A stretch of DNA of 63,286 bases from Candidatus Loosdrechtia aerotolerans (GTDB taxonomy: Bacteria > Planctomycetota > Brocadiia > Brocadiales > Brocadiaceae): assembly GCA_021646405.1 (NCBI GenBank), contig SOER01000016.1, forward strand, positions 1-63,286, in the 5' to 3' direction. This document shows, in pieces, positions 49,136 to 63,286 of the stretch. The notes beneath the pieces are model-generated. The model saw only the letters and a list, made by a program, of their open reading frames with translations, made no database searches and was not told where the DNA came from. Position 1 is the first letter of the stretch. Every line of letters begins with the position of its first letter. A program made the translations under genes and the position numbers.

Positions 49136-50281
49136 TTATTCAATAACCACCTTGCCCTTTTCCAGCTTTAATCCATACTGCTTGCTGCCGTAAGATCCGG
49201 CAGATGCTATGGTATAGATAGGGGTAAGATTTTTGTCACAGATGCCGTCTGCTATTTTTCTTCTCACCTTACTGATAGTCTGCCGCAATATTTTTGACGG
49301 GACTCCCCCCCGCTCTCTGTACTTTTCATACAACTCCTTGCCCTTCAAAGAGTTCTTGCCAAATATCTTTTCATACCATGCGACCAGGGCATTCAATGCG
49401 TCCCTTCCCATCAAACACCTTATTGAGATATAACAATCAACGCATTCGAGGCAGTATTTTCTGTCCGGATACTGGCAGTGATTCAGCTTTTGATCAATGA
49501 GTATCAGGTAAAGGGATAGTTCCATCGGTGTAAATTCAATAGTCTTGTCACCAATCTCAAGCACCCTGTCACACAGATTCACCTTCAGAGATTCCTGCAC
49601 CAGCGCAGTGTCTATTCCTTCCTGCCCCTGACGGACAAGTTCCCGGAAGCTATTGCTGCCCAGAAGCAATTTTTCCTTCAGACGGATAAACGGCAGTTCT
49701 GCCAACTGAACACCAGCCATGTCTGTTGTCATTTTTTTCACGGTCCCGTCAGGCATCCTGCACGGTATCAATTCCGGTTCTTTTGGAGGATAGAAAAATT
49801 CCGGATTACCTTCAAATTCAGGCCTTACCAGGACGTGATACAGCTTATCCCACGGCCTGCCAAAGAGTTGCAGGGCACCGCCAAGATAGAATCCCATAGT
49901 CTTACGCCCTCCGGCGATAGAACAGTGAAGCCGTGTCGTTGCGTCTCCTGCCTTTTCTCTGATAAATCCTGTTATGATATCTCCGGCTGCCTCATTCTCT
50001 TCGTTGTCTCTTATATCTTGCAACGGAGCACCGTCGCGGCCTTTTATTACTATAAGACAATCCTCATCAAAGCGTATCTGAGGGAGCTTGTATTCCTCAA
50101 TAAGTTGTGTAAGAATATTTCGTCTGATGAGGGTATCGGCAATCAGTTGTTTGCCGTAAGAAGTAGTTATGATGTAGAGTTCCCTGATAAATACAGGAGG
50201 GATGTTTCTGGATAGTGCATAAATTGTTTCAGTAACAATCTGTGGGGTGGCACCTGCTACGCAAATAAGAATGTCTTTCAT
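49136..50281 (-). CDS. CRISPR-associated CARF-HTH protein, NE0113 family
   Basis: This 381-aa protein has a CARF domain (about 1-190) that begins ILICVAGATPQIVTETIYAL and has the ligand loop SIAGGRKTMGFYLGG, the hallmark of the NE0113 CRISPR-associated family. A winged-helix-like C-terminal part (about 215-381; FTPMELSLYLIL, TISKVRRKIADG) surrounds a cysteine cluster (CLECVDC, later IRC). It is probably a regulator that responds to cyclic oligoadenylate from a type III effector. It lies at the left edge of the CRISPR island, with no partner gene in an operon. Confidence 0.8.
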   Translation of the reverse strand: MKDILICVAGATPQIVTETIYALSRNIPPVFIRELYIITTSYGKQLIADTLIRRNILTQLIEEYKLPQIRFDEDCLIVIKGRDGAPLQDIRDNEENEAAGDIITGFIREKAGDATTRLHCSIAGGRKTMGFYLGGALQLFGRPWDKLYHVLVRPEFEGNPEFFYPPKEPELIPCRMPDGTVKKMTTDMAGVQLAELPFIRLKEKLLLGSNSFRELVRQGQEGIDTALVQESLKVNLCDRVLEIGDKTIEFTPMELSLYLILIDQKLNHCQYPDRKYCLECVDCYISIRCLMGRDALNALVAWYEKIFGKNSLKGKELYEKYRERGGVPSKILRQTISKVRRKIADGICDKNLTPIYTIASAGSYGSKQYGLKLEKGKVVIE

Positions 50282-50952: not shown

Positions 50953-51068
50953 TAGCGTTCTGCAGAGAATATTCAACAGATAAAACCGAACAGAATATGA
51001 AAGAGTACGTTTTAAAATTCCATTCTGGTATGTGCTAATATGTTCGATTTCATCCGTGGAGTACTATA
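50953..51068 (-). mobile_element. IS630-family terminal fragment inserted in a CRISPR repeat
   Basis: Read on the minus strand this matches the 47.2-kb IS630 terminus over about 115 bases. Its outer end, TACTATA, abuts ATACAGGTCTTCTTTCCTAT, the 3' portion of a CRISPR repeat, exactly at that repeat's internal TA. This is what TA-targeted insertion into the repeat would produce. Confidence 0.7.
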
Positions 51069-51152
51069 ATACAGGTCTTCTTTCCTATACATTCCCCTCC
51101 TGGGAGGGGTTAGGGGTGGGTAAAATACGTGTCGCAATCCCTTCTAATACAG
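51069..51152. CRISPR. Fossil CRISPR unit left of array 1
   Basis: A 3' half repeat of the array-2 type (51069-51088), a 42-base spacer-like segment and a 5' partial repeat (51131-51152, starting GTCGCAATCC) form one relic unit. The spacer core CATTCCCCTCCTGGGAGGGG recurs in a second relic near 60.7 kb. Confidence 0.7.
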
Positions 51153-51205
51153 CCGACATTCGAGAGGTTTCCTGTTAAGTTCGCAAATTTCTTGTAAAGG
51201 CGGAA

Positions 51206-51458
51206 AGCTCCGGAGGAGCGGCATATTAATAGAATGAGAATTTACCCACATGGTAAGCTCCAGAGGAGCGACATGTTGGTAACCCTCAGTTCAAGGTTCA
51301 GGGTTCATGGTTAAAAGCGTTAGGAAAAGGACTGTTTGGAGGTTATAAAGACTCGGGACGATTAGCATCGATTATTTCCGTGCCTTCTATGCCGCTCCTC
51401 TGGAGCTCAAGAGTGGTACCTATTGTTTTTCTATTAATATATCGCTCCTAACGGAGCT
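51206..51458. repeat. Four palindromic GCTCC-GGAGC modules
   Basis: Modules AGCTCCGGAGGAGCG (51206) and AGCTCCAGAGGAGCG (51256) face two inverted copies, CGCTCCTCTGGAGCT (51393) and CGCTCCTAACGGAGCT (51443). Flanks such as ATATTAATAGAA are shared by the first and last copies. They are REP-like dispersed repeats in a gene-free stretch. Confidence 0.65.
51286..51352 (+). repeat. Partial third copy of the flanking repeat
   Basis: This segment (GGTTAAAAGCGTTAGGAAAA then GGACTGTTTGGAGGTTAT) is a diverged direct copy of the start of the right flanking repeat at 60.86 kb and an inverted copy of the end of the left one. Confidence 0.6.
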
Positions 51459-51510
51459 TTCTACGTTTTTCAAAAAACGAAATTATTACAATATTCTTTC
51501 ATTTACCGGC

Positions 51511-51533
51511 GAAAACCTCTTGAATATCAGATA
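51511..51533 (+). repeat. Dispersed repeat copy 4, joined to array 1
   Basis: The motif AAAACCTCTTGAATATCAGA, then TAC, is a diverged copy of the repeat at 107-132. It replaces the 5' half of the leader-distal CRISPR repeat, with the junction in shared ATAC bases. Confidence 0.6.
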
Positions 51534-54010
51534 CAGGTCTTTTTTCCTATGCATGAAATAACTTTTATTGTACATACAAAAGAAGTCGCAATCCCTTCTA
51601 ATACAGGTCTTTTTTCCTATTCTTGTGAAGAGTATCATGTTGTATCAATATTGTCGCAATCCCTTCTAATACAGGTCTTTTTTCCTATCAAGTGATTAGC
51701 TATATATTAGAGTGCAATCGGGTCGCAATCCCTTCTAATACAGGTCTTTTTTCCTATGAAATCGAAATCTGGGAAGAAATCCAAATCTGGGTCGCAATCC
51801 CTTCTAATACAGGTCTTTTTTCCTATCAGCGTCAAAAATACGGGTTTCCTGTAATAATATGTCGCAATCCCTTCTAATACAGGTCTTTTTTCCTATTACT
51901 CGCCCAGACAACTGGGAGTACCGGTTAGGTCGCAATCCCTTCTAATACAGGTCTTTTTTCCTATCCGGAATACCAGACAGCATGGAAAGAAGCGTAGTCG
52001 CAATCCCTTCTAATACAGGTCTTTTTTCCTATCTCCATAACATGTCCCCCGCGTGAATGGCTATGTGTCGCAATCCCTTCTAATACAGGTCTTTTTTCCT
52101 ATAGGTGTATCTGGTGGGTTTAAGGCTCTTTCTGGCGTCGCAATCCCTTCTAATACAGGTCTTTTTTCCTATTCTGGGAAGAAATCGAAATAGTTTTATT
52201 TTGCCAGTCGCAATCCCTTCTAATACAGGTCTTTTTTCCTATGCAGAAGCACTTGCAAGATGCCTCTTGAAAGGAGGTCGCAATCCCTTCTAATACAGGT
52301 CTTTTTTCCTATAAATAATAAGGAGCACATTATAAATGCGAATGCACGTCGCAATCCCTTCTAATACAGGTCTTTTTTCCTATAATTACTGAAAAGCCAA
52401 ATTGAACTGGCGTGTTCGGGTCGCAATCCCTTCTAATACAGGTCTTTTTTCCTATGTTTTTATTTGGTAAGTTTGTGGGGGAAAACAAGTCGCAATCCCT
52501 TCTAATACAGGTCTTTTTTCCTATACAATGCATTCATAAAGAATGTTATTATCCATGGTCGCAATCCCTTCTAATACAGGTCTTTTTTCCTATGAGATTG
52601 TGGAAGAGGGTTAGAACCACGGAACACACGTCGCAATCCCTTCTAATACAGGTCTTTTTTCCTATGCAGTTAAAAAAGATTACCTTTGTGACACGAGTGC
52701 GGTCGCAATCCCTTCTAATACAGGTCTTTTTTCCTATCCTGGAAGGACTACCAGATGACTTGGAAGTCGGAAGGTCGCAATCCCTTCTAATACAGGTCTT
52801 TTTTCCTATTAGAATTTATTAATGAATTGTGCAAAACCTTAAGTCGCAATCCCTTCTAATACAGGTCTTTTTTCCTATACCAGCCCAGACAATTGGGTGT
52901 ATCGGTTAGATGAAGGTCGCAATCCCTTCTAATACAGGTCTTTTTTCCTATATACAAATTGAAGTAATATCGATTTCCGGTTCAAGTCGCAATCCCTTCT
53001 AATACAGGTCTTTTTTCCTATAGTATGGGAAATGGAAACTAATCACTATAATTGTCGCAATCCCTTCTAATACAGGTCTTTTTTCCTATGAAAGCAATTA
53101 TTACAACTACGTATGTTTTATTCCTGTCGCAATCCCTTCTAATACAGGTCTTTTTTCCTATGATGGAAGGAGTTCTGAACGAAGAAAATCTTCCAAGTCG
53201 CAATCCCTTCTAATACAGGTCTTTTTTCCTATTGAAGGAAGAAGTAATTATTGTTGACGGTTGGCGTCGCAATCCCTTCTAATACAGGTCTTTTTTCCTA
53301 TGAGATGGAAAATTTCGTTTCGATTCTGCAGGAAGCGTCGCAATCCCTTCTAATACAGGTCTTTTTTCCTATGAATAAATGAAAGAAGAAGTAGTTTTTG
53401 TTAGCGGTGTCGCAATCCCTTCTAATACAGGTCTTTTTTCCTATTAGAAAGGAGATAGAATGTTAGTATTCATAGACTTAGTCGCAATCCCTTCTAATAC
53501 AGGTCTTTTTTCCTATTGCAGACCTCAACCAGGAAGAGCGGGAATTTCTAGTCGCAATCCCTTCTAATACAGGTCTTTTTTCCTATTCGAGTATTGCGAG
53601 CAGCCATGAAATCCAAAAAGGAGTCGCAATCCCTTCTAATACAGGTCTTTTTTCCTATGGATATATCACAGGTTTATATGTATTAGTAAAACACGTCGCA
53701 ATCCCTTCTAATACAGGTCTTTTTTCCTATGACCTGAGACAGCTATGTGTTCAGATTGTTGCTGTCGCAATCCCTTCTAATACAGGTCTTTTTTCCTATG
53801 AATATGTAAACGAAAACAAAATAGAATATTCATAGTCGCAATCCCTTCTAATACAGGTCTTTTTTCCTATGGGCCGATAGCTCTGGAGGTGTGCAGACCT
53901 TCGGAGTCGCAATCCCTTCTAATACAGGTCTTTTTTCCTATTTTGATTTTTATTTTATCATCTTAATTCAGAAAGTCGCAATCCCTTCTAATACAGGTCT
54001 TTTTTCCTAT
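51531..54010 (-). CRISPR. CRISPR array 1: 35 full 36-bp repeats plus one partial
   Basis: The repeat begins GTCGCAATCC and ends CTTTTTTCCTAT on the plus strand; 35 intact copies run from 51585 to 54010 and a 3' half copy lies at 51531-51550. Spacers are 32-37 bases and repeat starts are 68-73 bases apart. On the minus strand the repeat ends ATTGCGAC, like the ATTGAAAC 5' handle of mature type I/III crRNAs, so I infer minus-strand transcription. The degenerate copy then lies at the leader-distal end, and the cas operon lies upstream on the same strand. Many spacers read as sense coding sequence on the plus strand; see findings. Confidence 0.97.
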
Positions 54011-54113
54011 AGCACCCCCTTCCCTTTCTCACGTATTATCAAGTACTTACAAAACCGGTTTTTCATTATATCAGATGTTTTAAAAGTTAGCATGGAAATA
54101 TTTCTGAAATATT
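54011..54113 (-). promoter_or_regulatory. Predicted leader of CRISPR array 1
   Basis: This AT-rich gap lies between the array's first transcribed repeat and the stop of cas2b. A tandem palindrome GAAATATTTC (54095-54104 and 54106-54115) lies about 85 bases from the array and runs into the end of cas2b. A related tandem palindrome lies at 59859-59879. The promoter itself is not obvious. Confidence 0.55.
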
Positions 54114-54389
54114 TCATAGGAATATCTCCACCCCTTCCGGAATCCTGTCTCCCTGACCAAGCACTACACATCGAATATTGGATGGCAGCGGGTATATCCG
54201 TATATCGTCTTTGTTGCTGTCAATTATACCTTTAAGTTCCTCTTTCAATCCTGTTAACTCCTGCCAGGTAAGTTTACAAAAGAATACCGAATACTGTATA
54301 TGCGTTCCGATACCCTTCAGCGTTTTAAATACCCGCCTTAGTCTTTTTGCATCGGTAATGTCATAACAAACGATATAATTACTCTTCAC
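54114..54389 (-). CDS. cas2: Cas2 endoribonuclease-fold protein, second copy (cas2b)
   Basis: This 91-aa protein has the Cas2 ferredoxin fold with the conserved aspartate in YIVCYDITDAKRLRRVFK and the strand IYPLPSNIRCVVLG. Cas2 bridges Cas1 dimers during spacer integration. It follows cas1b by 3 bases and is the last gene before array 1. It differs clearly from the other Cas2 encoded 2 kb upstream. Confidence 0.9.
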   Translation of the reverse strand: MKSNYIVCYDITDAKRLRRVFKTLKGIGTHIQYSVFFCKLTWQELTGLKEELKGIIDSNKDDIRIYPLPSNIRCVVLGQGDRIPEGVEIFL

Positions 54390-54392
54390 TGT

Positions 54393-55229
54393 CTATAGAT
54401 ACTGATTGAATTCCCCACCGAGTCTCAGTTCTCTGATAAGTTCAAACATACCGTCAATAATATGTTCTGTTAAGTTTACGACAGCATCCTTTCTGTTTTC
54501 AAACCGCACTGCTATTGCCTTTACATCTTCTGACGACATCTCTTTGTTTTTACGATGTTCAGCGCCTTTTTTTCCCTGGAAGAATTGAATTGACTGAATG
54601 TCTATCTCAGGACCGAGTACATGGCAAACATCCAGGGCAAGGCCAAAATCTCGCCTCCTGTGCATCACCCCCATGTGGGGGTCGAATTCCGACGCTATGA
54701 GTTTGCTTACAACCATTTCCAGAAAGACTGCGGAAATGGCATTACGAATATAGTGAAACCGTTTGCGATACGGTGCCGTGACGTTATCCATTACCCGCTG
54801 ATACTCTTCTTCTTTGAGGCCTACCGTAACATAGCTGTCGGGTATCTGCCTTTTTAAAAGCCTTTTCAGGACGGTGATCTGAACCCTCTGACGATATGCT
54901 CTCAAAAAGGTCATAAACCGCTTACTGTTATAATCTGACTCAAGGAATATCCTTTGTGTTTTATACTGTCCTGGCAGGTGGTGTTTGTACGGTAGTGTTA
55001 CCGCTATCTGGCTGCCTTTCCTGTCGAAGAATGTTATGGGAATATTGTTTTGGGTAAAGAGGGTTATCAGGCTGGTATCCAGTTTGATATTCCCTACAAT
55101 TACCACCCGCTGAATCATCCTCGCAGGCACACGCCTGCCTGACTTCTCCCCTTCCTTCACCACGATGGAAGGTCCGTCTCTTATTACGCTGAGTGTTGTG
55201 TTTTCATTCAGATAAAGTGTCTTTTCCAT
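54393..55229 (-). CDS. cas1: Divergent Cas1 homologue (cas1b)
   Basis: This 278-aa protein has a clear Cas1 N-terminal beta domain (MIQRVVIVGNIKLDTSLITL) and a helical domain with FDPHMGVMH, keeping the metal-binding His190. Asp200 in LALD is kept, but the next acidic position of canonical Cas1 is His203 (DVCH instead of DLIE). The usual EGxA motif is not recognisable; Glu140-142 are the only candidates. It is about 40 aa shorter than its neighbour. Its start overlaps the end of cas1a by 26 bases. It may be a structural partner in a mixed integrase or a diverged second enzyme. Confidence 0.88.
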   Translation of the reverse strand: MEKTLYLNENTTLSVIRDGPSIVVKEGEKSGRRVPARMIQRVVIVGNIKLDTSLITLFTQNNIPITFFDRKGSQIAVTLPYKHHLPGQYKTQRIFLESDYNSKRFMTFLRAYRQRVQITVLKRLLKRQIPDSYVTVGLKEEEYQRVMDNVTAPYRKRFHYIRNAISAVFLEMVVSKLIASEFDPHMGVMHRRRDFGLALDVCHVLGPEIDIQSIQFFQGKKGAEHRKNKEMSSEDVKAIAVRFENRKDAVVNLTEHIIDGMFELIRELRLGGEFNQYL

Positions 55230-56166
55230 CCATGACCCTCACTGAAATATCCCTTGCCCTCCTGGCAATATCTTTTCTAATCGTTCCGGCCCATTCCTCA
55301 TAAACGGAATAAAACTTCTTCCTGGCATTTTTCTTTAAATAAACCCCTTCTTTCTCCTGCACAAAATCTTCTGAGGTACATTTTCCGTCTTTAAACATCT
55401 CCCATACAAACCGGTCTGTCATCGGCCGAAATAGCTCAATCAGGTCGCAGGCAAGGGAGTCCCGTCCGTAATCAAAACAATGATAAAAACCAATCGTAGG
55501 GTCAAGCCCCGCAACCTGTATCTCCCTTACCGCCTCATAATGAACCAGCGTATAGCAAAGTGAGAGCATTGCATTTACCGGGTCTTTCGGAGGTCTCCTG
55601 GTGCGGGTGTTAAAATCCAGGGATTCAGGGAATAGTCTGGTAAACGCAGAAAAATATGCATTCGAAGCAGCGCCTTCATATCCCCTCAGACTCTCAAGGG
55701 TATCACATTTTGAAGCGATGCTGTCAGCAATATTCTCAAGAGTGCAGAAAACACTGTAAAAAGTTTCCTTCGGGTTTACCTCTCCATTGTTTTTTATTGC
55801 CTCTCCGAGAAATTCACTTTGATGCCCGATCTTCCCGAGGACAATTTCCTTTGATATTGCTATGGCAAAGTCCCTGTTGAGAGATTTTTCATATTGTTTG
55901 ACCCTCAGAATGCTGTTGTTATGGAGACGTCCGGTAAGGATACCCCGGTACTGGAGTCCTCTGCCTGACAGGAATATAACGCTGCTTCCGTTATCTGCAA
56001 GTTTGTTGAGTACGCTTGTTTCTACAGTATTATTCCCAACAATTATCACTCTGTTAAGCGGACGTACGGGAACAATGCCTTCCCTTTTTCCGTCCAGGTA
56101 AAAGGCAATTGATTCACCGTCAAGCTTTATGTGATAACCCTTTCTGTCAATATATAATGTACCCAT
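55204..56166 (-). CDS. cas1: Canonical Cas1 integrase (cas1a)
   Basis: This 320-aa protein shows all Cas1 active-site positions: Glu164 in GYEGAASNAYF, His229 in LDPTIGFYH, and Asp241/Glu244 in ACDLIELFRP. The NFxTRxRRPPKDPVNA-type segment is also present. It should integrate spacers with Cas2. It lies 8 bases after cas2a and overlaps cas1b, so the order is cas2a-cas1a-cas1b-cas2b. Confidence 0.95.
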   Translation of the reverse strand: MGTLYIDRKGYHIKLDGESIAFYLDGKREGIVPVRPLNRVIIVGNNTVETSVLNKLADNGSSVIFLSGRGLQYRGILTGRLHNNSILRVKQYEKSLNRDFAIAISKEIVLGKIGHQSEFLGEAIKNNGEVNPKETFYSVFCTLENIADSIASKCDTLESLRGYEGAASNAYFSAFTRLFPESLDFNTRTRRPPKDPVNAMLSLCYTLVHYEAVREIQVAGLDPTIGFYHCFDYGRDSLACDLIELFRPMTDRFVWEMFKDGKCTSEDFVQEKEGVYLKKNARKKFYSVYEEWAGTIRKDIARRARDISVRVMDGKDTLSE

Positions 56167-56174
56167 GGTATCCT

Positions 56175-56456
56175 TTATCCGAAATAAAAAAACTCAGGAT
56201 CTTTTGGGGGTAATGCGGTACCCATGGTATGAGACCTGCTTCTGCCGTCAAGGGGGAAGATATGAATCCGGTCAGTGCTCTCATCAATAATATGTGATAC
56301 ACCGGTGATAACCTCCCTCAGTTCTCCTTGTGTAAGGAAACATTCAAAGACGGACTTCTGACCGCCCGTGCTGAATCCCTTCAAAAAATACCGCAGCCGG
56401 TTAAGGCGTTTTGGTGTACAAATATCGTATGCCACAATATAAAGATCTCTTTGCAT
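56175..56456 (-). CDS. cas2: Cas2, first copy (cas2a)
   Basis: This 93-aa protein has the Cas2 fold with the conserved aspartate in YIVAYDICTPKRLNRLRYFL, the KSVFECFLT strand and IHIFPLDGRS. It is the first gene of the adaptation module and lies immediately upstream of the canonical cas1. Confidence 0.92.
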   Translation of the reverse strand: MQRDLYIVAYDICTPKRLNRLRYFLKGFSTGGQKSVFECFLTQGELREVITGVSHIIDESTDRIHIFPLDGRSRSHTMGTALPPKDPEFFYFG

Positions 56457-56592
56457 AGCACAATACCTGACCGGTTTTTGCTTTCAAATGCTCTTTCCTT
56501 TGAAAATTCTTATACAATCAAGCTAAAAGACATCAGGAAATCTACCATTTCAATAATTATGTCGTAATTTTCACCTAATGCGCTGATTAATT

Positions 56593-57585
56593 TCATGCTT
56601 TAATAAAATACTTTCCCAGTCCGAAACTTGTTCCCTTTCCGACGTGAAGTATTTCCCCTGCCTTAATGAATGGATAAAAGGGTGAAACGATACCTTTGTA
56701 TACGATATCTCCCACAAATCCGCCGAGCTTCATCCTTGTATCCTGTCTGCGGGAATACCGTTCCCAATCGCGCCACTGAAGGTTCGATACCTTTATACCT
56801 GTTGTACGTGCCTCATCTATAAGTATGCGGTGATATCCCTCATTGAACAATCCGCTGTCTTCAGAATTATCTTTACAATAGTAGTGCCTGAGTAGAAATA
56901 ATCGTCTCAAAAGCTGTCTGATAAAGATATGAAATTCCAGGTCAATAATAAGTTTACCGCTGTACTTAAGACGGGTAGGTGTGAGAAATCTCACGGTAAT
57001 TTCTTCGGCAGTGTTCTGTACTGTGTCTGGGATCCTTCCCTCCACCGCTGAAAGGATACTTTGGTTTAAATCTATACACTCATCGCCAAAGGGTTTAACC
57101 TTACGGGTTTTAGAACAGTAGATTAATTTAGAATCATCCTCTGCATCAACCGTATATACCTCCCGGAGCTGGCAACTGCCTCTTCCTCTGCCAATGCCAT
57201 TTTTTCCCAGCAGGTCAAAGGTGTAAATAAAATAGGGCAGGTATTGTATTGCATCGCCAATGAGAACCAGGCCAAGAGAGAACGTTTGTCCCGTAAGATA
57301 CCTTTGTTTCTCTTCTTCAGGTGGTTCTATGACAAACGGATGAGGAATGGAATTTACCCTGCCAAGTATATTAGCCTCATCCGGAGAGTGGGATTCAAAG
57401 ATGTATGCATAGGCGCATCTTTGTTTAAGCAGGCAGTCACGGCAGTCTGTCTTCTTCAGGGTACAGGCAACTTTTTTGAACTGAACGCCAAACGCCCCTC
57501 TGAAGGTAGAGCCTTTATAGGAAGGAAGGTGTATTTCCTCTTCTGCTTCCATAATAAAGGTAAAGCGTTTGTAGGGTATTTTCAT
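56593..57585 (-). CDS. cas6: Cas6 crRNA-processing endoribonuclease
   Basis: This 330-aa protein resembles the PF10040 Cas6 group. The C-terminal part has WRDWERYSRRQDTRMKLGG and HVGKGTSFGLGKYFIKA, with the glycine-rich loop of RAMP proteins, and the N-terminal part has SYKGSTFRGAFG. A cysteine cluster (CRDCLLKQRC) may bind zinc. It should cut the array transcript to leave an 8-nt ATTGCGAC tag. It lies between the CARF-HEPN gene and cas2a. Confidence 0.88.
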   Translation of the reverse strand: MKIPYKRFTFIMEAEEEIHLPSYKGSTFRGAFGVQFKKVACTLKKTDCRDCLLKQRCAYAYIFESHSPDEANILGRVNSIPHPFVIEPPEEEKQRYLTGQTFSLGLVLIGDAIQYLPYFIYTFDLLGKNGIGRGRGSCQLREVYTVDAEDDSKLIYCSKTRKVKPFGDECIDLNQSILSAVEGRIPDTVQNTAEEITVRFLTPTRLKYSGKLIIDLEFHIFIRQLLRRLFLLRHYYCKDNSEDSGLFNEGYHRILIDEARTTGIKVSNLQWRDWERYSRRQDTRMKLGGFVGDIVYKGIVSPFYPFIKAGEILHVGKGTSFGLGKYFIKA

Positions 57586-57645
57586 GGTATATTATGTAGT
57601 GATATTTTTCATCCGGAAAAAACAAAACACGGAAAAACGGGTGGC

Positions 57646-57668
57646 ACAGACAAACTCCGTTTGTCCGT
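57646..57668. other. Hairpin after the CARF-HEPN gene
   Basis: A near-perfect stem ACAGACAAAC/GTTTGTCCGT lies directly beyond the CARF-HEPN stop codon, inside the gap before cas6. A sibling lies in the centre of the MITE at 50580-50601, and both follow GGGTGGCAC. It could end or process the transcript, but no T-run follows. Confidence 0.5.
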
Positions 57669-58901
57669 TTAAATGTTTAACCTGGGAAATACAATTACCT
57701 CATCTTCACTGAATATATTAAGACCCAGGATGAACTCCCTGAATTTCTTATAGGTATTGTCACTTGCGCATGCAAATCCGTGAACAAGATAAGAATTATT
57801 TCTCTGTGATTGAATCTGGCGAAAATGTGACAGACGTTTTTGAAATTCCTTACCCAAATCATCCTCCAGCGCTTCGAGTAATTCAAATGCGGCATTTTGT
57901 GATACCTTTATTTTCCCGTCTCTCCTGTCTTTGTATTTCCTGATAAATTCATCACTCACCTGTTGTGGTATTTTCTCTTCAATCACACTACCCGTGTCTA
58001 TCCCATGGTTATTCAGTAACCTTTCCTGGGCAAGCATTTCAACCAGTCTGTAAAGTCGTACAACAGCGTCATCTATCTTCCCTTCCTCAAAACGCCTTTC
58101 AGCATTTGAGAATATATCCAGGGCGAATAACCTGTCGGGTTTCCGTTGCGTCCCGGAAAGAAACTCGAGTTGGGGTTTTAACTGAAGGGTAGCCCTGGCA
58201 AATAACCGTATCCTTTCGTCATCCGTTTCCAGAAGTTCTTCTATCCTTGCCCTTTCAAACTTGCCTACAGCCTCGCCGTGCCTGAAAATATCCCAGCTAT
58301 AATATCCGTCAATAATAAAACCCAGTTTTTTAAAAATACTCTTGTGACTGGTGTTTTTTTCTAATATATCATCGACAAGTGCCTTTGCCGCCTTGAACTG
58401 ATAGGTATTGAACAGGAATGATATCTTCTTCCGTTCATCTATGGCAAGGAAGTCCCACGGGTTGACGCTTTCGTAGACCTCTTCTTTACCGTCAACTACG
58501 GTTCCGACACCGCCCTTTGTCCTCTCTGTACCTCCTACGTAAGAAAAGTTGAATCCATGGGCAACGGCGGAAAGGGAGAGGGCAACAGACATATTCTTTG
58601 TCCCTCCGGTATAATCCACAATAACCTCATCGCTCCGAAAACCTTTCGACAGCACCCTTTTTACCGCCTCTTCTGCCTTACTAAAACAGTGGTACAGGTC
58701 GTTGACCTCGTCGGACAGGGTTATTTCGCTCTTTATGGTATATTTTGCCTCCTGTATCTGTATCCCCTTTTTAATCTCCGTCACGTGGTCGCAGGTATCC
58801 TGGGAGGCGAAGAAGGACACGAATTCCGGCCGGTATTTGGTAATGGATTTTATAATCGGCGCCGGCGTTCCGCCCACAGAGATTATCATTGCCCTGATCA
58901 T
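57669..58901 (-). CDS. CARF-HEPN ribonuclease, TIGR02710/Csm6-like
   Basis: This 410-aa protein has an N-terminal CARF domain (MIISVGGTPAPIIKSI; ligand loop DYTGGTKNMSVALS near 96-109) and a C-terminal HEPN-like domain with the catalytic pattern Arg-x6-His in RNNSYLVHG (about 367-374). Such proteins are activated by cyclic oligoadenylate made by Cas10 and degrade RNA. It is the first gene of the minus-strand cas operon. No cas10 lies in the window. Confidence 0.85.
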   Translation of the reverse strand: MIRAMIISVGGTPAPIIKSITKYRPEFVSFFASQDTCDHVTEIKKGIQIQEAKYTIKSEITLSDEVNDLYHCFSKAEEAVKRVLSKGFRSDEVIVDYTGGTKNMSVALSLSAVAHGFNFSYVGGTERTKGGVGTVVDGKEEVYESVNPWDFLAIDERKKISFLFNTYQFKAAKALVDDILEKNTSHKSIFKKLGFIIDGYYSWDIFRHGEAVGKFERARIEELLETDDERIRLFARATLQLKPQLEFLSGTQRKPDRLFALDIFSNAERRFEEGKIDDAVVRLYRLVEMLAQERLLNNHGIDTGSVIEEKIPQQVSDEFIRKYKDRRDGKIKVSQNAAFELLEALEDDLGKEFQKRLSHFRQIQSQRNNSYLVHGFACASDNTYKKFREFILGLNIFSEDEVIVFPRLNI

Positions 58902-59008
58902 ATCATTATCTCCAACGCGTGTTATAGAAGTTTATTCTTTCAGGTAAAAAGGTCTCATTCCTTTCATGAATTGCCCTTATGGGGACTGTTATAATTCACA
59001 AATATAAC

Positions 59009-59419
59009 TCATGAAATAGAATAAATATTTAAATTGATTTCCTTCCTGATAATTTCAAAATGTTTATCCAGGGTGAGAAGTTGTACATTATTTGCATGAG
59101 ATACTACAGAAATATAGCAGTCTGCAAGTCCGACCGTTTTTCCATTCTGACGTAATGCTAAGGACAGTTCTCCTGCCTTTGTCCACATTTCAGCCGAGTC
59201 GGTAAGAAAATCGAAAACATAGAGGAATTCTTTTATCACACCGAGTTCATTTTTTGATTTTACGCCCTGAATGAGTTCAGCCAGGACAATTCCCATACAA
59301 CAAACCCTGTTATGATCGATGAGGTTCAGTACGATATTCTGATATGGCGCCTGGCCTCTGAAAAACTCAATCCATACGGATGTATCAATTAAAACCTTAA
59401 CCGGTTCTTTTGTCTTCAT
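59009..59419 (-). CDS. vapC: VapC-type PIN-domain toxin
   Basis: This 136-aa protein is a PIN ribonuclease with the first acidic site in LIDTSVWIEFFRG, a glutamate in LAELIQGV and a later aspartate in GLADCYISVVSHANN. It should cut tRNA or other RNA unless bound by its antitoxin. It overlaps the antitoxin gene by 23 bases. Confidence 0.92.
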   Translation of the reverse strand: MKTKEPVKVLIDTSVWIEFFRGQAPYQNIVLNLIDHNRVCCMGIVLAELIQGVKSKNELGVIKEFLYVFDFLTDSAEMWTKAGELSLALRQNGKTVGLADCYISVVSHANNVQLLTLDKHFEIIRKEINLNIYSIS

Positions 59420-59606
59420 GTCTGAGTTTATCTGCCGATTTTATGAATTCCATCTTCCCGGCCATAGATTTTATCTTTTCCGTCTTTTTCATCCGTATTT
59501 CATCTTTTATGGCCTTTATTACCGCTTCCGTTTTGCTCTTTGCTTCAACGGTTGACATCAATTCATCCAGTAAAGAATTTGGCAATGTTATGGTTGTTCT
59601 TGACAT
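59397..59606 (-). CDS. vapB: VapB-type ribbon-helix-helix antitoxin
   Basis: This protein (69 aa from the ATG preceded by GGAG) has the N-terminal strand RTTITLPNSLLDELM typical of ribbon-helix-helix antitoxins, followed by SKTEAVIKAIKDEI. It should bind VapC and repress the operon. A longer frame with a hydrophobic N-terminus exists but lacks a ribosome site. Confidence 0.85.
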   Translation of the reverse strand: MSRTTITLPNSLLDELMSTVEAKSKTEAVIKAIKDEIRMKKTEKIKSMAGKMEFIKSADKLRHEDKRTG

Positions 59607-59666
59607 ATATTTACTCCACAATAATATGCTTAATAAAAGCATAAATATTTTATAAATATTCGTGCT

Positions 59667-59828
<162 letters not shown>

Positions 59829-59858
59829 TTACCATAGTTTTTAAAAAATGCAACACAA

Positions 59859-59879
59859 GAAATATTTCAGAAATATTCC
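59859..59879. promoter_or_regulatory. Tandem palindrome GAAATATTTC
   Basis: GAAATATTTC and GAAATATTCC lie one base apart, the same arrangement as in the leader of CRISPR array 1 at 54095-54115. The flanking A/T-rich bases are also similar. It may be a shared operator or a duplicated leader piece. Confidence 0.45.
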
Positions 59880-60027
59880 CGTTATCCAAACCTGAATACT
59901 GAGTTATCGAAGTATCCAAATCCCAAACAAATTCTAAAAAACAAATCCCAAATTCCAAACAGTATAATTTGGATATTGTAAAATTGATATTTGGAATTTC
60001 CCCAAGCAGGTTCAAATTTGTAACAGG

Positions 60028-60165
60028 TTACAAACCTGAACCCTCTGATATAATGATCTTATCTACAGAGTCTTCTGTGTTTGAAGGCTGTGTAATAACA
60101 ACCTTGTACACTTCTTTCGACAGCATCTTCCTTACTATCTCTTTATCATCTGAGAAAAAACTCAC
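60028..60165 (-). CDS. Small coupled ORF downstream of the repeat protein
   Basis: This 45-aa frame begins with a GTG that overlaps the preceding stop (GTGA), and AGGAGG lies about ten bases upstream. It reads VSFFSDDKEIVRKML to IIISEGSGL. I recognise no family. Coupling and the ribosome site argue for translation, but the length argues for caution. Confidence 0.4.
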   Translation of the reverse strand: MSFFSDDKEIVRKMLSKEVYKVVITQPSNTEDSVDKIIISEGSGL

Positions 60166-60608
60166 TCCCCTTTTCCCTCCTTATCCTTCTTCTCCTCCGA
60201 AGATGATGAAGAGAACGGTCTCACAAAACCCGCCCTACTCCACCTGTTATTAAACCTCTCAAACACCTCGTCATCATCTCTTCTTTCAATGAACTCTTCC
60301 CTCTCCCGTTCTTCGTCAAATACCTCAAATCTGTCCTTTCCTCTCCTCTCTACAAACCCTCTCCTATTCCACCTCTTATCGAATAACTCTATCCTCCCAT
60401 CCCTTCTCTTCTCTGCAAACCCCGTCCTGTTCCAATCCTTATCAAACAACTCCAACCTTCCACTCCTCTCATCCTCCCTCACAAACCCTGTCCTATTCCA
60501 CCTCTCGTCAAACACCTCATACTCTCGTCCCACGACGGAGGAGGTTGTTGACCAGGTGGAGAGGAGTATGCAACATGGGAATAACAACAGTAATAAAGGT
60601 CTTTTCAT
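60162..60608 (-). CDS. Exported tandem-repeat protein of unknown function
   Basis: This 148-aa protein has a hydrophobic N-terminal segment (LLLLLFPCCILL) as a signal peptide or anchor, then five ~21-residue repeats with the pattern (E/L)-FD-x-x-WNR-x-GF-x-E-x-R. The first three are nearly identical; the fourth has lost the WNR core. The C-terminus is a serine and charge-rich tail. The pattern resembles small beta-blade repeats that build beta-propeller or beta-flower folds, but I do not recognise a family. It lies in the CRISPR island between vapBC and array 2. Confidence 0.6.
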   Translation of the reverse strand: MKRPLLLLLFPCCILLSTWSTTSSVVGREYEVFDERWNRTGFVREDERSGRLELFDKDWNRTGFAEKRRDGRIELFDKRWNRRGFVERRGKDRFEVFDEEREREEFIERRDDDEVFERFNNRWSRAGFVRPFSSSSSEEKKDKEGKGE

Positions 60609-60710
60609 ATCTTTTTCTCCTTTCTTCCCCTCCCCCTCATCGATTCTTCACTTTTATTAATTCAAAGAACTCTTGCCTTGTGGATTGGTTGTCCATAAAC
60701 TCCCCACAGA

Positions 60711-60815
60711 ATCGTAATCCCCTCCAATACAGGTCTTCTTCCCATACATTCCCCTCCTGGGAGGGGTCAGGGGTGGGTGAGTCACAATCCCTTCTAATAC
60801 AGGTCTTCTTTCATA
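60711..60815. CRISPR. Fossil CRISPR unit left of array 2
   Basis: Two degenerate repeats (60711-60745 and 60781-60815), several bases off the array-2 repeat, enclose a 35-base spacer whose core CATTCCCCTCCTGGGAGGGG also occurs in the relic near 51.1 kb. It is a leader-distal remnant or a duplicated piece. Confidence 0.7.
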
Positions 60816-60854
60816 CTTGAGGGAACCAGGAACGGGGCCGATCCCATATGCATT

Positions 60855-61202
60855 GAACTACTCAGGTTCAATGTTCAGAGTTCAGGGTTAAAGGCATGAG
60901 GAAAAGAACTGTTTGAAGGTTATGAAGAACACCTGACAGCCAGCTTCACTCCTCCCCTGAGTCTTAGACCGCAAAAACCTTTCAAGATTCTTCACTCCGC
61001 TTCGCGGAGTTTACCCTGAACACACTCGCTTCGCTCAGTATAAACTCCGTGAATGTGTTCAGAATGACAGAATAGAGGTTGCCATCCTGAAACCCTTCAT
61101 TCCACCTAAGATGCCAGCAGGGAATTTGTCATTCTGAGCGGCAGCGAAGCGGAGTGAAGAATCTCGTCTTTTCACGGTGTTAAGAGAGCATCTTATACTG
61201 AA
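60855..61202 (+). repeat. Right copy of the inverted repeat flanking the CRISPR island
   Basis: This segment matches the minus strand of 47640-47930. It has an additional ~50-bp stretch near 61015 that contains its own inverted repeat (GAACACACTCG... to GAATGTGTTC). No coding frame is evident. The following 61203-61413 shows nothing recognisable. Confidence 0.8.
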
Positions 61203-61414
61203 CACATGAAAATTCCTATACATTCAAGCTCAGGAACAATGCTGTACTTTTTCTGATCCTCACACAAAGTCACCAAAACACCAGGATATATGGTATGTCC
61301 CCATTCTTGCCATTCTATCCTTCATCATTCTTTATTCTTTTTATTCTTAGTGCCTCCGTGTCTTTGTGTGATGAAGATACCTTAGCTTGATGAATATGGG
61401 GCCAGTCCCCGTCG

Positions 61415-63136
61415 TCGCAATCCCTTCTAATACAGGTCTTCTTTCCTATTAGAATATCTTTCAGGCACTCCCCAAGAAAGGTCGCAATCCCTTCTAATAC
61501 AGGTCTTCTTTCCTATATCGTAATTTATTACATTTTTAACATTGTTATTAGGTCGCAATCCCTTCTAATACAGGTCTTCTTTCCTATGGGGCATATCATG
61601 TCTGATGCACCCCCTGGAGGTTTACCGTCGCAATCCCTTCTAATACAGGTCTTCTTTCCTATGTATGAATGAGGCAATCCGTGCCGGTAAGAACCGTCGC
61701 AATCCCTTCTAATACAGGTCTTCTTTCCTATACCATCACGAGAAGATAACGCAACAACAGAACGTCGCAATCCCTTCTAATACAGGTCTTCTTTCCTATG
61801 GAAAAAAACTGTTGAGGTTGAGGAAAAATCAATGTCGCAATCCCTTCTAATACAGGTCTTCTTTCCTATAAGAAATAAAGACTTGTCAGTGGCTGAATTC
61901 ATTGTCGCAATCCCTTCTAATACAGGTCTTCTTTCCTATATAAAAAATTAAACAAAGAAGGAAAGGCAGAAGGGTCGCAATCCCTTCTAATACAGGTCTT
62001 CTTTCCTATAACAGAGAGAAGCTGGATGAATATGGCTTGGAAGCGTCGCAATCCCTTCTAATACAGGTCTTCTTTCCTATGCCTTGATGAGTGGAAAGGG
62101 TTGGAATCTTCCCAGGTCGCAATCCCTTCTAATACAGGTCTTCTTTCCTATCTTCTGTCTCATAGACAGGTGTTATGTTACCTGTCGTCGCAATCCCTTC
62201 TAATACAGGTCTTCTTTCCTATTCTAGAACAAGGAAGTATGGCATCACAAGTAGTCGCAATCCCTTCTAATACAGGTCTTCTTTCCTATGATTCATTAGA
62301 CGCATTAATTCCAAGAGTTGCTTTGTCGCAATCCCTTCTAATACAGGTCTTCTTTCCTATGGGATGGAGGGGATCCTGACGCATGACGAATTGCCGTCGC
62401 AATCCCTTCTAATACAGGTCTTCTTTCCTATGAAAAGGAGCAAGTTAAAACGCTTCTTAACCTCGTCGTCGCAATCCCTTCTAATACAGGTCTTCTTTCC
62501 TATTCGAAACACTGCCGGATGAAGAGGAAATACGAAGTCGCAATCCCTTCTAATACAGGTCTTCTTTCCTATGCGGCCTCATTGAGCCTATAAGGATTCT
62601 AAAAGCATGTCGCAATCCCTTCTAATACAGGTCTTCTTTCCTATGCCAGAAAGCAATAAGATTATCTGGATTCTGCTGTCGCAATCCCTTCTAATACAGG
62701 TCTTCTTTCCTATAGATAGGAAATGGACAAAAAAAATGCTTTCTGGCGTCGCAATCCCTTCTAATACAGGTCTTCTTTCCTATCATACTAACTCTGGCTT
62801 AAGATTCTTGTATTATAGTCGCAATCCCTTCTAATACAGGTCTTCTTTCCTATCTAGAAATGGGATCAATGGCATCTCAAGTAATCTCGTCGCAATCCCT
62901 TCTAATACAGGTCTTCTTTCCTATCATACTAACTCTGGCTTAAGATTCTTGTATTATAGTCGCAATCCCTTCTAATACAGGTCTTCTTTCCTATGTTGCG
63001 CCAGTGACAGATTATTTTCTGCCACTGGCGTCGCAATCCCTTCTAATACAGGTCTTCTTTCCTATTTAGAAGATTTAGAAAATTTCTTCGATGGTACGAT
63101 GTCGCAATCCCTTCTAATACAGGTCTTCTTTCCTAT
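61415..63136 (-). CRISPR. CRISPR array 2: 25 repeats of 36 bp
   Basis: The repeat is that of array 1 except position 28 (C instead of T, giving CTTCTTTCC). There are 24 spacers of about 30-39 bases. Direction is inferred as minus from the ATTGCGAC end. All repeats to the right end look intact. Two spacers (62784-62817 and 62925-62958) are identical. The expected leader side is cut by a transposase gene 30 bases after the last repeat. Confidence 0.97.
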
Positions 63137-63166
63137 AATAATGAAGGAAATAAACATATTTAGGAC

Positions 63167-63286
63167 TTACGCATTTGCTAATAAATAATGAGTAACAGCA
63201 GACCTGGTAAGAGAAGCTTTTTGCTCATACCAGGGAATTCGTTCTTTGATTCTTCTTGTTTCCAATTTTACAAAGGCAAGAAAAGA
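63167..63286 (-). CDS. C-terminus of a transposase (partial, runs off the window)
   Basis: The 39 visible residues include SFLAFVKLETRRIKERIPWY and end LTRSAVTHYLLANA. This fits the C-terminal end of IS701/IS4-like transposases, where a WYE-like segment precedes the last helix. The stop is followed by TTAGGACTTACGCA on the plus strand, probably the element's terminal repeat. It lies on the leader side of array 2 and is transcribed toward the array. Confidence 0.55.
   Translation of the reverse strand, partial: SFLAFVKLETRRIKERIPWYEQKASLTRSAVTHYLLANA

Follow-up and report, generated by a model that had tools for sequence, protein, structure and literature searches.

The CRISPR (clustered regularly interspaced short palindromic repeats) arrays of type III systems show a known preference for the coding strand. 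In the consulted sections of a survey by Vink et al. (2021, PMC8482600), this preference averages 65% and reaches 88% in the III-B arrays of Moraxella, whereas it is weak or absent in type I. For the type III systems of Thermus thermophilus that lack a reverse transcriptase (RT), the excerpted text of Artamonova et al. (2020, PMC7515739) reports that acquisition is strand-neutral and that selection creates the bias, and the relevant part of a review (PMC9048733) describes RT-Cas1 systems as free of strand bias during adaptation apart from ribosomal RNA genes. For natural arrays the question is whether spacers that match transcripts are actively selected at uptake by type III systems, or whether only those of use are retained afterwards. 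The present analysis concerns a stretch of 63,286 bases from Candidatus Loosdrechtia aerotolerans (termed the window), which constitutes contig C7 of a 61-contig, 3.26-Mb genome (G000) and carries CRISPR arrays together with cas genes. An original prediction from its letters held that the spacers are sense-coding on the plus strand, such that the CRISPR RNAs (crRNAs) would be antisense to messenger RNA (mRNA), as expected of RNA-targeting type III interference or RNA-derived acquisition. We find that the plus strand of the spacers is sense-like and that the window is a strong further example of the known type III coding-strand bias, rather than a new kind.

Orientation of the arrays and strand preference of their spacers

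The interval 51585-63136 is made up of two arrays, A and B, with cas genes and other sequence between them (54011-61413). The CRISPR arrays are real and hold 58 spacers (34 + 24), of which 57 are distinct, B20 being identical to B22. Sixty repeats across the two arrays match exactly or with one mismatch, and the repeats of array A differ from those of array B at one base. Related repeats are also found in named records of Candidatus Jettenia ecosi and Candidatus Kuenenia hertensis.

In all probability the crRNAs read the minus strand, because a conserved leader is found only at the end of array A with the higher coordinates and degenerate repeats lie at the other end. In an alignment of eight leader sequences from seven genomes, including G000, about 105 bp adjoining the last repeat are conserved, while the opposite ends of the arrays in the same relatives have nothing in common except the repeat. 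Read from the leader, the repeat terminates in ATTGCGAC, as expected of a crRNA handle. The assignment of crRNAs to the strand opposite to plus, originally predicted from this handle, is thus supported by the one-sided conservation of the leader. A near-identical 40-nt element (CATTCCCCTCCTGGGAGGGG...) occurs at 51082-51121 and 60739-60778, inside the degenerate repeats on the leader-distal side of both arrays. At its leader end array B is interrupted by a multi-copy element, within which contig C7 terminates.

Open plus-strand frames had been the principal evidence for sense-like spacers, and they proved non-discriminating: a plus frame is open in 56 of the 58 spacers and a minus frame in 54, with totals of 101 and 106 open frames respectively. 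As open frames are equally common on both strands, we rejected them as strand evidence. The four plus-strand peptides quoted in the original prediction (LEGLPDDLEVG, ADLNQEEREFL, NREKLDEYGLE and ETLPDEEEIR) are present as given, and its claim of purine-richness holds, with a purine fraction above 0.5 in 45 of the 57 distinct spacers and below 0.5 in 12. Its ribosome sites and start codons are in part recovered, namely AGAAAGGAGATAGAATG at 53445 and AAGGAG followed by ATG at 52313, whereas 53302 and 53373 have an ATG only, with no clear ribosome site. In a wider group of 194 spacers with the window repeat type this pattern appears 15 times on the plus strand versus 3 on the minus; composition-keeping shuffles give 12.3, and ribosome sites were therefore rejected as evidence beyond composition.

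The strand preference is better captured by a model of codon log-odds. With 84 long open reading frames (ORFs) as its training set, it preferred the plus strand in 46 of the 57 distinct spacers (sign test p=3e-6), and in 47 when retrained on 456 ORFs. Its accuracy on true coding 35-mers is 74% for family ORFs and 76-77% for two phages, so that about 75% plus calls is what full antisense orientation would give, and the spacers agree with this. Only 2 of 1000 mononucleotide shuffles that keep the strand composition reached the score sum observed for the window spacers. There is no trend from leader-distal to leader-proximal spacers. The bias is firm, its magnitude less so; as no protospacer was found, strands were assigned on statistical grounds.

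Strand bias across the family

For comparison, 60 stretches around cas1 genes and arrays were fetched from genomes of the family, and arrays were called in these and in previously obtained loci. The stretches were hand-picked from cas1 and array matches, and weak or fragmentary cas1 matches as well as two planned loci were omitted. Spacers outside 24-50 nt were excluded, one two-spacer array was left unclassified, and 27 type II spacers (12 antisense-like) were kept out of the type I pool. Loci L084 and L091 were at first grouped with the window repeat type and later moved out. The status of a group as type I or III relies on tblastn to a few proteins, and L094, L097, L098, L100 and L112 have no cas3 match.

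Under the codon model, 145 of the 194 spacers of the window repeat type, from seven genomes, are antisense-like (64/91, 8/9 and 13/19 in the relatives G001, G012 and G017), and the target strand is the purine-rich one in 153 spacers versus 36. Type III-like loci with a single cas1 and no RT yield 42/64, those grouped as having a separate RT by cas1 19/30 (12/20 + 7/10, two of the five loci being uncertain), and arrays with a fused RT-cas1 25/34, the orientation of two of these (L115 and L117) being assumed. Pooled, these other type III-like arrays give 86/128 and are biased with or without an RT, whereas five type-I-like repeat groups pooled give 506/1044 and show no bias. The corresponding maximum-likelihood antisense fractions, uncorrected for composition, are 0.98 (0.89-1.00) for the window repeat type, 0.83 (0.64-0.98) for single cas1 without RT, 0.82 for separate RT, 0.94 for fused RT and 0.43-0.61 for the type-I-like groups. 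The window repeat type differs from type I (p=8e-15); its difference from all other type III-like arrays is not significant (p=0.19).

Correction for composition leaves a score per spacer of 0.490 +/- 0.093 in the window repeat type versus 0.000 +/- 0.047 in the type-I-like arrays. If all spacers lie inside genes, the corrected antisense fraction of the group comes to 0.79, with values of 0.92 in the window, 0.68 in G001 and 0.85 in the remaining genomes; that of the I-B-like group was 0.36 in a sample of 250 spacers and 0.50 in the full 662. A near-total antisense fraction was rejected as a firm number, since the correction lowers it from 0.98 to 0.79.

Homologous spacers provide a view of orientation independent of the codon model. 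Among the 194 spacers there are 17 non-identical homologous pairs (13 families), all in the same orientation and 15 at shifted positions, while the I-B-like group of 662 spacers has 13 pairs in the same and 5 in opposite orientation. In the window, the pairs A5/A19, A24/A26 and B12/B21 have plus-strand peptides in common; the plus strand scores higher in A5/A19 and B12/B21, whereas in A24/A26 the minus-strand reading is slightly ahead (36 vs 32). Plus-strand peptides are common to pairs such as LEQGSMASQV/LEMGSMASQV, including a serine that is coded by AGT in one spacer and TCA in the other. Several spacers of the G001 array (L065) match versions of a single sequence (KMEWGHKEHK), which suggests repeated sampling of one viral gene.

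Selection, acquisition and composition as possible sources of the bias

The best account of these observations, with a probability of about two in three, is ordinary type III immunity, in which minus-strand crRNAs are antisense to invader transcripts and the spacers have been kept by selection. The arrays would be transcribed from the minus strand, array A from its conserved leader, and the transcripts processed by Cas6. The resulting crRNAs would have sequences complementary to the coding strands of genes in the invader and would bind its transcripts. In type III systems, binding of target RNA activates Cas10, and the cyclic oligoadenylate signals made by Cas10 switch on CARF effectors, which here would be the Csx1/Csm6 and CARF5 proteins encoded near the arrays. 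Spacers in the opposite orientation would give no protection and would not be kept, with no RNA-copying step required in acquisition. The presence of csm/cas10 genes near orthologous loci supports this account, in which we infer both the mRNA targets and the role of selection as the cause of the bias.

Several points weigh against it. If the true antisense fraction is close to 1, selection alone must act on nearly every spacer, compared with a type III average of 65% in the literature. A purine excess beyond that of ordinary genes makes up part of the raw signal, which lowers the corrected fraction. The Cas10 of the G001 Csm operon, used as a query, has no match in G000, the other csm genes not having been searched genome-wide. 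Finally, no protospacer that would reveal an mRNA target directly was found in phages, plasmids, the viral contigs scanned with patterns or 33 family genomes. Both arrays were searched against phages and plasmids, the G001 array against phages, and array A and then joined spacers against the family genomes; viral contigs were scanned with eight exact or codon-degenerate patterns (seven from window spacers or pairs and one from a G001 family), a scan that covered a minority of the 57 spacers. Matches were at chance level (E 0.5-5 in phages and plasmids, and 0.046 or worse outside arrays for the joined spacers in family genomes), and self-targeting spacers were not seen. Mapping protospacers to coding versus template strands, proposed with the original prediction, thus yielded no match to assign.

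Among the alternatives, a composition artefact, whereby spacers with a purine-rich target strand would be taken up or retained preferentially for reasons that have nothing to do with coding or transcripts, draws on a target-strand purine content (0.584) above that of phage genes (0.54) and on composition-keeping shuffles, which reproduce 125.9, or over half, of the raw score of 218.7. It is nevertheless very improbable, given that the observed score exceeds those shuffles (z=4.4), that the corrected excess persists relative to the type-I-like arrays, and that homologous spacer pairs have plus-frame peptides in common. RNA-derived acquisition had been offered as a further source of the bias, and a search for RTs linked to cas1 had been proposed. 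None adjoins the array-linked cas1 of the window, which in this respect does not resemble RT-Cas1 type III loci. The only RT beside a cas1 in G000 is on contig C44, where it overlaps cas1. Next to these come cas2, cas6 and a complete set of III-D effector genes, and the 19 + 17 kb retrieved on either side of the locus (L017, L018, L045) hold no CRISPR array. This arrangement might allow the C44 RT to copy invader RNA into the window arrays in trans, a prospect we regard as distinctly improbable: the C44 Cas1 and the Cas1 linked to the arrays have just 33-34% identity, and the window-type arrays of G001, G012 and G017 are biased with no RT beside any cas1. In G001, a single contig of 3.46 Mb, the one RT over the cut-off is at 1,060,452, the nearest cas1 at 1,309,790 (about 249 kb away) and the array-linked cas1 at 2,096,439. 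Because G001 shows the bias with no RT near any cas1, RNA copying is not required for it; across the family, type III-like arrays with and without an RT do not differ measurably (p=0.37). Hence, antisense guides for type III RNA-sensing remain the best reading of the original prediction, in keeping with the minus-strand crRNAs, the sense-like plus strand and the Cas6 and CARF genes, whereas its RNA-derived acquisition is not needed. An antisense bias alone is no evidence for RNA-derived spacers.

Oriented acquisition might also proceed without an RT. The one unusual part of the locus is its twin Cas1-Cas2 module, comprised of cas1 and the diverged cas1b together with cas2a and cas2b, which occurs in all seven genomes or loci with the window repeat type. 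Cas1b retains His190 and Asp200, whereas the segment bearing the catalytic Glu is absent from all six Cas1b sequences aligned; it thus does not possess the full Glu/His/Asp set, presumably the motif of a functional Cas1 integrase. Cas1b is 64-79% identical among relatives, is under purifying selection (pN/pS, the ratio of nonsynonymous to synonymous polymorphism, 0.19-0.29) and was detected in 7 of the 392 genomes that represent the phylum. Of two predicted structures, the first was unusable (mean predicted local distance difference test, pLDDT, 44.5) and the second moderate (60.9); the top Foldseek rows for the Cas1b model were nearly all Cas1 chains, the rest being a casposase and an unnamed Aquifex protein, with template modelling (TM) scores of ~0.3. 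Literature searches on twin or inactive Cas1 in type III, and on anammox CRISPR, returned no description of the twin module; a second Cas1 is known to curators, because one of the PADLOC models bears the name 'Cas1, diverged variant, second in the loci'. The module could act as an asymmetric integrase, with Cas1b as putative partner, that inserts strand-polar substrates such as displaced or transcript-paired DNA one way. Its presence in all seven loci, the constraint on Cas1b despite the missing Glu segment, and the highest point estimate of the antisense fraction in the family are in line with this proposal. We nonetheless consider it rather unlikely, as single-cas1, RT-less type III-like arrays are biased too and no significant difference separates the window type from the other type III-like arrays. 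Its most specific form, in which active Cas1-Cas2 and a conserved, catalytically dead Cas1b with its own Cas2 would load prespacers in an asymmetric way at transcribed DNA or at RNA-DNA hybrids, nearly all spacers being antisense before selection, is clearly doubtful.

Gene content and comparison with known systems

The features of the window are collected below. All genes between the arrays (cas6, cas2a, cas1, cas1b, cas2b and Csx1/Csm6) are on the minus strand.

Features of the arrays and associated genes in the window
Feature	Coordinates	Strand	Basis or remarks
CARF5-family protein (Cas_NE0113)	49136..50281	minus	profile matches; orthologues beside G001 arrays (L065) and in G015 (L067)
Degenerate or partial repeats, leader-distal side of array A	51067..51555 (at 51067, 51130, 51529)	minus	repeat families D2, D3
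CRISPR array A	51585..54010	minus	35 repeats of 36 nt, 34 spacers; crRNA strand very probably minus
Array A leader	54011..54117	minus	alignment of 8 sequences, conserved in relatives
cas2b (second cas2, 91 aa)	54114..54389	minus	Cas2 profiles; copies 79-88% identical in six relatives
cas1b (second, diverged cas1, 278 aa)	54393..55229	minus	without segment bearing catalytic Glu
cas1 (320 aa)	55204..56166	minus	active-site motifs present
cas2a (first cas2, 93 aa)	56175..56456	minus	Cas2 profiles; copies 88-92% identical in six relatives
cas6 (crRNA-processing nuclease)	56593..57585	minus	profile matches
Csx1/Csm6-type CARF-HEPN ribonuclease	57669..58901	minus	profile matches
Degenerate repeats upstream of array B	60710..60816	minus	repeat comparison
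CRISPR array B	61414..63136	minus	25 repeats, 24 spacers
Start of multi-copy element	63157..63286	unassigned	eight further matching places in genome

The type III accessories Cas6, Csx1/Csm6 and CARF5 adjoin the arrays, while no Cas10 with Cas7/Cas5-type subunits was found inside the cas block of the window. Elsewhere in G000 there are the III-D genes on contig C44 and III-B-type genes on contig C5. In G001 a Csm operon (Cas10, Csm2-5) adjoins the array, and weaker Cas10 matches lie on the same contig, ~7-16 kb from the arrays, in G005, G015, G017 and G020, with none in G012; a Cas10 match thus occurs near the arrays in five of the six other genomes with twin cas1. An assignment of the window to type III-A (Csm) was rejected, there being no match in G000 to the G001 Csm Cas10. 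The csm operon may have been lost or left unassembled, the latter being possible because contig C7 stops inside the multi-copy element that adjoins array B. Alternatively, III-D or III-B-type genes at other loci of the genome may make use of the crRNAs; the Cas10 complex that employs them is thus a matter of inference. On contig C5 (L019, L020), Cas10, Cmr3 and CARF-RelE lie directly beside type I-B cas3/cas1, and the repeat group concerned is unbiased. Beside cas6, positions 56534-56596 of the window retain the initial 21 codons of a gene for a Cad1-like CARF-adenosine deaminase, of which full versions are present in G001 (L064:11735-13405) and G005.

The anammox family offers a natural comparison, with type-I-like arrays at about 50:50, type III-like arrays that are antisense with and without an RT, and one clade with twin Cas1-Cas2; the alternatives of acquisition and selection are therefore directly testable in it. 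One of the known systems closest to the window is the type III-A (Csm) locus of the relative G001 (L064-L065), which has the same repeat family, leader, twin cas1-cas2, cas6, Csx1 and CARF5, and differs in having Cas10/Csm2-5 beside the array and an intact CARF-deaminase gene, neither of which the window has in the assembly. As in the RT-Cas1 type III systems of Marinomonas mediterranea and others, in the portion of the review concerned (PMC9048733), G000 combines type III with an RT beside a cas1, here on another contig; unlike them, its array-linked cas1 has no RT. The Thermus system (PMC7515739), as its excerpted text describes it, likewise has no RT and a strong antisense bias, there among protective spacers; its selection was shown by an infection experiment, whereas the window is known from natural arrays only. 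With the natural type III arrays of Vink et al. (2021, PMC8482600), to the extent of the sections cited, the window has in common crRNAs that would be able to pair with mRNA and a bias that is absent or weak in type I; in that survey the bias comes from mapped protospacers, whereas in the window group, where there are no matches, it is estimated at 0.79 (composition-corrected) to 0.98 (uncorrected).

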